Of a stretch of 64,000 bases of DNA, positions 52,790-55,197 are shown piece by piece. The translations under genes were made by a program, and so were the position numbers. Each line of letters starts with the position of its first letter. Within the stretch, counting starts at the first letter, position 1. Where the stretch lies: assembly GCA_023667845.1 (NCBI GenBank), contig JAMPIU010000050.1:62001-126000 (forward strand), written 5' to 3'. The stretch comes from Dehalobacter sp. Its GTDB lineage: Bacteria > Bacillota > Desulfitobacteriia > Desulfitobacteriales > Syntrophobotulaceae. The notes beneath the pieces were generated by a model, which saw nothing but the letters and a program-made list of their open reading frames with translations, was not told the DNA's origin and did no database searches.

Positions 52790-53155
52790 ATGTCCGGATA
52801 TGCAGCACTACCTGACTTTGAAATCTTAAATGGCCGGGAGCTTGACGGTCTTATCGTTAATGATAAATTTGTAAGTTATTACCAAGTAGAGTCTGCTCTT
52901 TATAATTATCCCAAAGTGTTCGAAGCAGGTGTCATCGTTAACAGCCAGGATGGTGAAAGCGTGATCCTCAAAGTATATCTTGCGCTCGAAGATTCTTTTT
53001 CGGCGAAGGAAGAAAGAGAACAATACTGCTCGGCGGTAGAACAGTACATCAGAAACAGTTTTTCATTTAAAATGCCCATCCGGGTTTTAATTCGTGAAAA
53101 ACTACCAATGACCAGATCTGGGAAAATCCTACGCTCTGTTCTTCGCGATTATTAA
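52790..53155 (+). CDS. Stand-alone acyl-CoA synthetase C-terminal domain protein
   Basis: A 121-residue protein that matches only the AMP-binding C-terminal subdomain of the acyl-CoA synthetase family: it starts at the hinge (EILNGRELDGLIV, compare GRxDD), continues with VESALYNYPKVFEAGVIV, and ends with TRSGKILRSVLRDY, which contains the lysine that catalyses adenylation. The large N-terminal domain is absent on either side. AAGGGAGG lies 9 bases upstream, so this is a planned start, not a remnant. Function unknown. Confidence 0.85.
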   Translation: MSGYAALPDFEILNGRELDGLIVNDKFVSYYQVESALYNYPKVFEAGVIVNSQDGESVILKVYLALEDSFSAKEEREQYCSAVEQYIRNSFSFKMPIRVLIREKLPMTRSGKILRSVLRDY

Positions 53156-53188: not shown

Positions 53189-53219
53189 CAAAAAAAGACC
53201 TTCTTATAAATTGAAGGTC
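53189..53219 (-). terminator. Terminator for the MFS gene
   Basis: On the minus strand GACCTTC and GAAGGTC enclose 9 bases and are followed by a run of T. It lies about 390 bases beyond the MFS stop, so the transcript would include the structured region at 53454-53550. Confidence 0.65.
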
Positions 53220-53453
53220 AAAAAATGAGACTAAATGAGTAAAACGAAGACAATATAATAATAATCATAAAATACACAAAAATCAATAAATAATATAACC
53301 AGATTATCCATCTTAAACCATAATACCGACGAAATTGTGGTTTGATTTATAACTGGAAAAAATTAATATTTTGATTTAAATAAAACAATCGAGAATCAAC
53401 AAATCAAAATCAACCTGCGAATATTATTGTCTGAAGCTGCAAAAGATAGTATT

Positions 53454-53550
53454 GGGAAAAGGGAAATACCGTAAGGTAAATAACCTTTTTCGAAGGCTAT
53501 CCGCCCTGTAGCGGAAACAGATACCCGGTCAGTTAAGCTACCGGGTATCT
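53454..53550 (+). ncRNA. Candidate structured RNA of unknown class
   Basis: Three consecutive hairpins are visible on the plus strand. The first has an outer stem (GGAAAAGG with CCTTTTTC), an A-rich internal loop and an inner stem TACC-GTAA-GGTA capped by a GNRA tetraloop. The second is CCGC-CCTGTA-GCGG. The third is GATACCCGGT with ACCGGGTATC around ten bases. The rest of the 454-base gap between convergent genes is AT-rich and empty. I do not recognise a riboswitch class. Confidence 0.45.
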
Positions 53551-53609
53551 TCATGATCACCATGTACGGCCTAATGCCGCAGTGTCATGGATAACAAGGA
53601 GCACAAACT

Positions 53610-55025
53610 TTATGCCTGATTATTATTGACGTGGATTTTACCGCGGGAGAAAGAGAAGAAAATACCAACAGCACAAAGGCAGGCTGAGATCAGAAAAGCA
53701 AGGCGAATACTCTGTATAAATTGCGGATAGTTTTCAGGGGTAATCTGGTTTTTGCCGACAAATATGGAAATCAGCAGCGTAGCTGTAGCCATACTCAGCA
53801 TCTGACCGAGAACCCTCATCACAGATACTGAGGCGGAGGCAATCCCGTAATAATGCTTATCTACGGAACTCATGACTGCATTGGTATTGGGAGAAGAGAA
53901 TAAGGCAAATCCAATACCCAGCACCATCAAAGCAGCGATGATCAGGAACAGAGAAGTATGCGGGCCGATAAAGGAAAGAAGAAACAAGCCTGCGGCTGTT
54001 CCAGCCATGCCCAAAGAGGCAATATTGGCAGGTTCTTTTTTATCGGAAATACGTCCGGCCAAAGGGGAAATTAAAGACTGGATAATAGGTTGGATGATCA
54101 GGATGATTCCGGCATGTTCTGAAGACATACCCTGGACGTACTGCAGATATAGACTCAGAAGAAAAGTTACGGAGTACGATCCAGCATAATTGATCAATGC
54201 TGCGACGTTGGAAAAAGCAAAAACCCGGTTATCCTGAAAAAGCCTGATTTCTAACACGGGATTCGGGACCTTGAGCTGGCGTTTCACAAAGAAAACAAAA
54301 CAAACAATGCTGAAGAGGATCAGGATAATCCCGAGAATATCGGGTAAAATGCTCGAACCATAGATAAGCGCAATCAGGGTAACGGCGAAGATCATACTGC
54401 CTGGAATATCCAGTTTATCATTTTTGGCATCGGCCCAATCGCTCTTGACATATGTAATCGTTAAAACCGTGATCAGGACCCCCAAAGGAACCAATACCAA
54501 AAAAATGCTTCTCCAGCCCCAATACTCGGTTAAGAATCCGCCTAGAAAAGGCCCGACAGCAAGTCCTACATATATGGCTGAAACATTAAAGCCCAGGGCT
54601 TTGCCGCGTTCCTGTGGTGGAAAGACCGAGGTGATCAGCGCCATTCCCGCAGTTGCGATCATCGATGCACTAATTCCCTGCAGGACTCTCATCACGATTA
54701 ATAGTTCAATATTTGGGACAAAACCTGAGATTAACGTAAATGCAGTAAATGAAATTATCCCCCATTTATAAAGCCTGGTCCGGCCAAGGATGTCGGCGAG
54801 TTTGCCGATAGGAAGAAGAAACACAGCCGAAGACAACAGGAAAGATGTCGCAATCCAGCTTAAAACGACAGCATCTGCTGCAAATTCCTTTTGAATTGCA
54901 GGCAGCGCGATATTGATCGATGAAATCATAAATGGAGTCAGAAAAGAACCTGCGGTTGCCATAAACAAAAGGGTGCGCTTAACCGTTTTGCTGTCATCGT
55001 GGGTGTGGTCATGACGTTCGTTCAT
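53610..55025 (-). CDS. MFS drug exporter, DHA2 (EmrB/QacA) family
   Basis: A 471-residue transporter with 14 membrane segments predicted. Motif A appears as GKLADILGRTRLYKWG, and motif C-like GLAVGPFLGGFLTEYWGWRSIF. It opens with a His/Asp-rich cytoplasmic stretch (MNERHDHTHDD). ATG at 55025 is 7 bases after AAAAGGAG; the frame extends further but without a ribosome binding site. Proton-driven efflux is likely, substrate unknown. Confidence 0.93.
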   Translation of the reverse strand: MNERHDHTHDDSKTVKRTLLFMATAGSFLTPFMISSINIALPAIQKEFAADAVVLSWIATSFLLSSAVFLLPIGKLADILGRTRLYKWGIISFTAFTLISGFVPNIELLIVMRVLQGISASMIATAGMALITSVFPPQERGKALGFNVSAIYVGLAVGPFLGGFLTEYWGWRSIFLVLVPLGVLITVLTITYVKSDWADAKNDKLDIPGSMIFAVTLIALIYGSSILPDILGIILILFSIVCFVFFVKRQLKVPNPVLEIRLFQDNRVFAFSNVAALINYAGSYSVTFLLSLYLQYVQGMSSEHAGIILIIQPIIQSLISPLAGRISDKKEPANIASLGMAGTAAGLFLLSFIGPHTSLFLIIAALMVLGIGFALFSSPNTNAVMSSVDKHYYGIASASVSVMRVLGQMLSMATATLLISIFVGKNQITPENYPQFIQSIRLAFLISACLCAVGIFFSFSRGKIHVNNNQA

Positions 55026-55197
55026 AAATACTCCTTTTTGGTACATTTTTTGACCCTTGTTCCTTTTATTAAAACAAAAACACAAGTCCTAAATTATTAT
55101 AAATGATTGTTTCTAAATCGTAAATTAATGTTTTGATGTATAAATTTTACATTTTAACGACATCCTATTAATAATTAACTTTTTAAGGAGGTTGTAC

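Follow-up and report, generated by a model that had tools for sequence, protein, structure and literature searches.

A structured small RNA family with a forespore-type promoter motif in Dehalobacter and its relatives

Small RNAs tied to sporulation have been described in firmicutes. CsfG of Bacillus is an intergenic small RNA of the forespore that carries conserved pyrimidine-rich stretches in its loops and for which the cited excerpts give no known mRNA target (PMC3574147, PMC9147052); the Rfam model RF00516, 'ylbH', represents the reverse complement of CsfG, according to the excerpt of PMC3574147. In Clostridioides difficile, SpoX and SpoY base-pair with spo0A at the onset of sporulation, as stated in the excerpt of PMC10267692. 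Here we describe a previously uncatalogued RNA family, known from one bacterial family, of which one member lies in a 64,000-nucleotide stretch of Dehalobacter sp. DNA (hereafter, the window), where an initial annotation, made from the letters alone, had marked a structured RNA candidate. No paper on this RNA was found in the open-licence literature.

Location and fold of the RNA

The RNA gene is located, as the initial annotation had it, between two convergent genes, in a gap of 454 nt. The GC content rises from 0.20-0.26 upstream to 0.46-0.50 across the RNA. The features of the locus are:

52790-53155, plus strand: AMP-binding_C gene, upstream of the RNA
53454..53552, plus strand: small RNA gene of about 97 nt, supported by the fold, covariance models R1 and R2, covariation and conservation
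53455..53491, plus strand: P1, with the stem 53455-53462/53484-53491, an asymmetric internal loop and an inner hairpin (53467-53478) capped by GUAA (GNRA)
53492..53499, plus strand: conserved single-stranded linker GAAGGCUA, consensus NAAGGYUN in alignments A5 and A6
53500..53515, plus strand: P2, with the stem 53500-53504/53511-53515 (U-CCGC/GCGG-A) and the near-invariant loop CCUGUA
about 53519..53550, plus strand: 3' hairpin, a probable terminator, followed in the window copy by a poor U-tract
53610-55085, minus strand: MFS gene, convergent with the AMP-binding_C gene

The promoter and the base of P1 set the inferred 5' end of the gene, and the terminal hairpin sets its 3' end. The segment 53440-53560 (121 nt) folds with a minimum free energy of -45.4 kcal/mol (z of -6.01; none of 200 shuffles was equally stable), and the fold confirms the three hairpins of the initial annotation, with P1 possessing both the internal loop and the GNRA cap. 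No other part is nearly as stable as the 3' hairpin, which supplies much of the fold energy; once it is removed, the window copy has a z of -2.1, and values over the 15 copies identified (see below) range from -0.6 to -3.4. Because folding energy at a z of -2.1 is insufficient on its own, the case for the RNA rests on conservation and covariation. An additional outer stem, AUAG/CUAU, closing P1 in the window copy was rejected, since G011 has lost it and the -10 region makes up its 5' side.

Two further elements surround the locus. Directly after the RNA, at 53560-53602, the window contains a copy of a dispersed palindromic repeat with a core like GCCATGGATGGCCTAATGCCGCAGTGCCATGGATGGCA, for which several further matching places were detected in G003, G012, G001, G002 and G004. 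On the minus strand, at 53192-53223, a GACCUUC/GAAGGUC hairpin followed by seven T resembles a terminator; minus-strand readthrough past the MFS gene would stop there and would thus be antisense to the entire small RNA.

Distribution, covariation and genomic neighborhood

The checks proposed by the initial annotation included an Infernal/Rfam scan and a covariation search in relatives. At the Rfam gathering thresholds, the sole match in the entire window is a tRNA and the RNA locus belongs to no known family; with E values up to 10, nothing meaningful was detected at the locus.

Homologs were found, in contrast, throughout much of one bacterial family. An initial DNA search covered 21 genomes and detected the region in 9, among them that of the window. 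Covariance model R1, built from 8 sequences, was run on 73 genomes of the order and gave one match in each of 14 genomes, every one of which belongs to the family, represented by 25 genomes. Model R2 (14 sequences), run with laxer filters, recovered the same 14 and weakly matched G010 as well (E 0.003; a score of 27.4 bits once the filters are switched off). The G010 sequence lies beside the same Mpl gene; its promoter reads GTATT-N17-AAAAATA and its linker AAAGG, and it has two hairpins, CCGC-UCUGUU-GCGG and a terminal one. Given the Mpl synteny, promoter, linker and two hairpins, it was taken as a diverged ortholog.

Beyond the family, a search of 82 genomes of the class with the RNA model yielded one extra weak match (G074, E 7e-4), which is unconvincing and runs over the end of an open reading frame, where there is a terminator-like hairpin. 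It was left out of the counts, as were loose R2 matches with E values of 0.01-1, mostly antisense at the same gene. Among 398 genomes of the phylum, searched with strict filters, matches were confined to the four closest genomes; as strict filters overlooked G010, remote relatives may have been missed in this search. A motif scan of 84,980 species genomes returned 19 records, of which 9, from Peptococcaceae/Gracilibacter, are true copies (64-114 bits). The other 10 come from unrelated genera and were set aside, the best of them, preselected by the motif, scoring 28.8 bits (Akkermansiaceae, L041). The motif scan of viral contigs produced 0 matches.

Within the family, the absence of the RNA from G005 and G009 probably reflects assembly gaps, G005 lacking a good Mpl match and the G009 contig ending within Mpl. 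In g16, represented by three SASP-bearing genomes, Mpl is present and the RNA is undetectable, which looks like a true absence, with the upstream stretch short in two of the three genomes (only 535 nt are assembled upstream of Mpl in G072).

The RNA is tightly constrained. Across the four most similar genomes, variation touches 4 of the 89 columns of the RNA, compared with 25.6% (5') and 21.4% (3') of the flank columns that are variable or gapped; in the promoter region of the four closest genomes, 5 of 39 columns vary, by eye none of them in either box. Covariation is clear as well. In the model-fitted alignment A7, 91.6% of 406 cells are paired and 11 of 30 pairs show double changes, against a shuffle mean of 6.1 (0 of 500 shuffles as high) and 1-3 in slid controls. 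Similar values come from A6, a MAFFT alignment that is not structure-fitted: 91.2% paired and 9 of 28 pairs with double changes (shuffle mean 5.2, with 5 of 500 as high; 1-4 in slid controls). Compensatory changes are apparent in the outer stem of P1 and in the inner P1 pair, which is A-U in 10 homologs, G-C in 3 and G-U in 1; covarying examples further include the outer pair of P2 (U-A in 11 of 14 rows, A-U in 3 of 14) and several pairs of the 3' hairpin, whereas each inner pair of P2 is kept in 13 or 14 of the 14 rows. Pairing is poorest in the outer stem of P1 (82.1% and 75.9%), in part because of a bulge that is poorly placed by the alignments.

This pattern of variation bears on the possibility of a short coding gene for a small peptide, which we consider hardly tenable. 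Short reading frames do occur in some copies, but the variation tracks the stems, and across the 15 copies no frame of at least 12 codons with a ribosome-binding site was detected and no frame is common to all.

The RNA stays near Mpl, which is found within 14 of the 15 stretches analyzed (the G012 contig is too short), and the adjacent genes on either side vary in kind and strand. Across the 15 neighborhoods, no same-strand gene directly downstream is conserved, and a riboswitch is therefore unlikely. More generally, a cis-acting element of a downstream gene, be it a riboswitch, leader or attenuator, is very improbable and already largely refuted: although a plus-strand gene is present 121-255 nt downstream in some genomes (G003, G008, G010, G011, G012, G061 and G063), it differs by genus (DUF378, cluster c11, cluster c13), the next gene is on the opposite strand in the others (G000, G001, G002, G004, G006, G062, G064 and G065), the strong 3' hairpin precedes any gene, and no riboswitch model of Rfam matches.

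The initial annotation had offered two readings, a small RNA or the 3' region of the MFS mRNA. The former gains from the covariation, the negative Rfam search, a conserved promoter of its own (see below) and the lack of a conserved downstream gene; the latter is not supported, with the MFS gene on the minus strand and several homologs lacking an adjacent MFS gene. The variable neighbors and the lack of a shared reading frame with a ribosome-binding site likewise argue against both a cis leader and an MFS 3' UTR. A fragment of the 3' UTR, or the terminator, of any neighboring mRNA, with no function of its own, is improbable too. The dominance of the 3' hairpin in the fold and the G006 copy, which abuts the convergent MFS gene, would fit such an origin, but conservation is highest in P1 and P2, which covary independently, the upstream plus-strand gene, AMP-binding_C in the window, is not constant among homologs, and the RNA has its own promoter.

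The terminal hairpin is present in 14 of the 15 copies; a run of four or more T comes after it in some homologs, and a clear T-run in G008, G011, G012, G061, G062, G063 and G065, though not in the window copy, where no terminator-like site was scored. The exception is the G006 copy (L026, G006:C1:3965-4045), in which the end of the convergent MFS gene occupies the place of the hairpin.

Promoter motif and link to sporulation

The promoter and the link to sporulation are additions to what the initial annotation had observed. Upstream of the RNA, the window contains:

53419..53423, plus strand: -35 element GAATA of the forespore type (sigmaG/F-like); GNATA in 14 of 15 copies, GTATT in G010
53442..53448, plus strand: -10 element AAAGATA, 18 nt after the -35 element; NANNMTA in every one of the 15 copies, with a spacing of 17 or 18 nt

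The relaxed motif GNAT[A/T]-N17/18-NANNMTA is found in all 15 copies, ending 2-10 nt before a reference point 44 nt ahead of P2, or in 12 of 12 once four near-identical genomes are counted as one; it was framed after the RNA alignment had been viewed, the independent part of the evidence being spoVT and the controls. In these controls, the relaxed motif occurs in 9 of 122 ORF upstreams and in 6% of 6000 shuffles (0.95% at about the same place). The strict motif is present in 10 of the 15 copies, compared with 1 of 122 control ORF upstreams and 1.1% of shuffles. The window copy, GAATA-N18-AAAGATA, matches the relaxed form only, and its -10 element fits the consensus less well than most.

The positive control, spoVT, is a late forespore gene in B. 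subtilis. In 20 of 20 family genomes, it is preceded by GAATA-N18-TATACTA. By eye, a related arrangement recurs in many SASP promoters, GTATT-N17-CAAACTA being one example; an unsupervised motif search of 30 SASP upstreams, however, returned the ribosome-binding site in the first run and a mixed motif in another register in the second. Because these runs did not recover the pattern in the register of the RNA, the spoVT promoters were used as the yardstick. The spoIIR upstreams showed no clear uniform match to the relaxed pattern. Between the start codon and a point about 70 nt upstream of it, the spoVT promoter region (L103-L122) hardly varies among the 20 genomes, a conservation beyond the needs of a promoter alone.

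With a GNATA-like -35 element, a 17-18 nt spacer and a NANNMTA -10 element, as in spoVT, the promoter of the RNA is a predicted member of the sigmaG/sigmaF regulon, sigmaF and sigmaG being indistinguishable here.

The RNA occurs in genomes with sporulation genes. SASP genes are present in 20 of the 25 family genomes, SpoVT scores above the cut-off in 20 and SpoIIR was detected in 19, the additional genome without it being G006 (77% complete). SASP and SpoVT are encoded by every one of the 15 genomes with the RNA, and all five genomes of genus g4 lack SASP, SpoIIR, SpoVT above the cut-off and the RNA. The association yields a Fisher p of 0.009, or 0.0017 when G010 is included and the two genomes with assembly gaps are excluded, neither value being corrected for ancestry; as the five negative genomes represent one genus, the link amounts to one evolutionary event. 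The three g16 genomes, SASP-bearing and RNA-negative, count against it. Syntrophobotulus glycolicus is reported to sporulate (PMC3156405), and spores are not reported for Dehalobacter (PMC3910700, PMC4751268). The latter sits oddly with a role in the spore and counts against it.

A stand-alone regulatory small RNA unlinked to sporulation, for which the GNATA/-10 match would be an ordinary AT-rich vegetative promoter, has to be weighed, and we regard it as unlikely. The RNA itself is independent of how the promoter is read, copies with TATAATA (G008) or AATAATA as the -10 element look sigmaA-like, and Dehalobacter is not reported to form spores (PMC3910700, PMC4751268). However, no sigma-70 site was scored ahead of the RNA in the window, the -35 element in 14 of 15 copies is GNATA rather than TTGACA and is held at a fixed spacing, as in the spoVT of the family, and the genus without sporulation genes is also the one without the RNA.

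Possible role and comparison with known small RNAs

From the sequence comparisons, we consider it probable that the locus encodes a stand-alone small RNA made mainly in the forespore by polymerase carrying sigmaG, possibly also sigmaF. Transcription would start from the GNATA-type promoter and stop at the 3' hairpin, which, together with the bulged GNRA stem, probably stabilizes the product. Contact with a partner most likely runs through two exposed and near-invariant segments, the AAGG linker and the CCUGUA loop; the partner would be either an mRNA, bound by base pairing in trans, or an RNA-binding protein. An mRNA partner, if there is one, would be a sporulation or germination mRNA, probably contacted near its ribosome-binding site. 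When 14 genomes were searched for perfect 11-nt complements of the P2 loop, 12 of the 19 matches fell on the RNA gene itself and the remaining 7 on unrelated places, with no shared target, which excludes a simple perfect-match target though not pairing through ordinary short seeds.

More tentatively, the RNA may be a forespore regulator that is specific to the family and on which selection still acts in Dehalobacter. The late forespore program of these organohalide respirers would then be functional, even though spores have never been reported, and the invariant CCUGUA loop and AAGG linker might point to a partner common to the family, an mRNA or a protein, of the spore during its development or germination. 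The constrained RNA and its intact forespore-type promoter suggest a spore program that is working or was only recently lost, and the RNA could serve as a marker transcript for testing it.

The 6S RNA (RF00013) of the same genome is also a stand-alone structured RNA, but the RNA described here has no RF00013 match, and a separate 6S gene scores above the Rfam cut-off elsewhere in the genome. SpoX and SpoY resemble it as sporulation-tied small RNAs of an anaerobic firmicute; judging from the cited excerpt, however, they act early, on spo0A, whereas here the promoter is of the late forespore type and no target was found.

CsfG is the nearest in kind. As far as the excerpts describe it, CsfG is likewise a stand-alone intergenic RNA, it is controlled by forespore sigma factors, as the forespore-type motif in 15 of 15 copies suggests for the present RNA, and both have conserved pyrimidine-rich loop stretches and no mRNA target assigned. 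The two differ in that there is no match of sequence or model between them, the present RNA consisting of P1 with its GNRA hairpin, P2 with the CCUGUA loop and the 3' hairpin. RF00516 exceeds its cut-off in 0 of the 25 family genomes and has no match at the RNA locus. The best RF00516 match reaches 26.3 bits against a cut-off of 50 (L147, G003:C1:2276378-2276481). We therefore rate the RNA as not a detectable homolog of CsfG and as a putative new family of the forespore small RNA kind, which perhaps works like CsfG and which adds to the very few known forespore small RNAs a covariation-supported family with a defined promoter, distribution and neighborhood.
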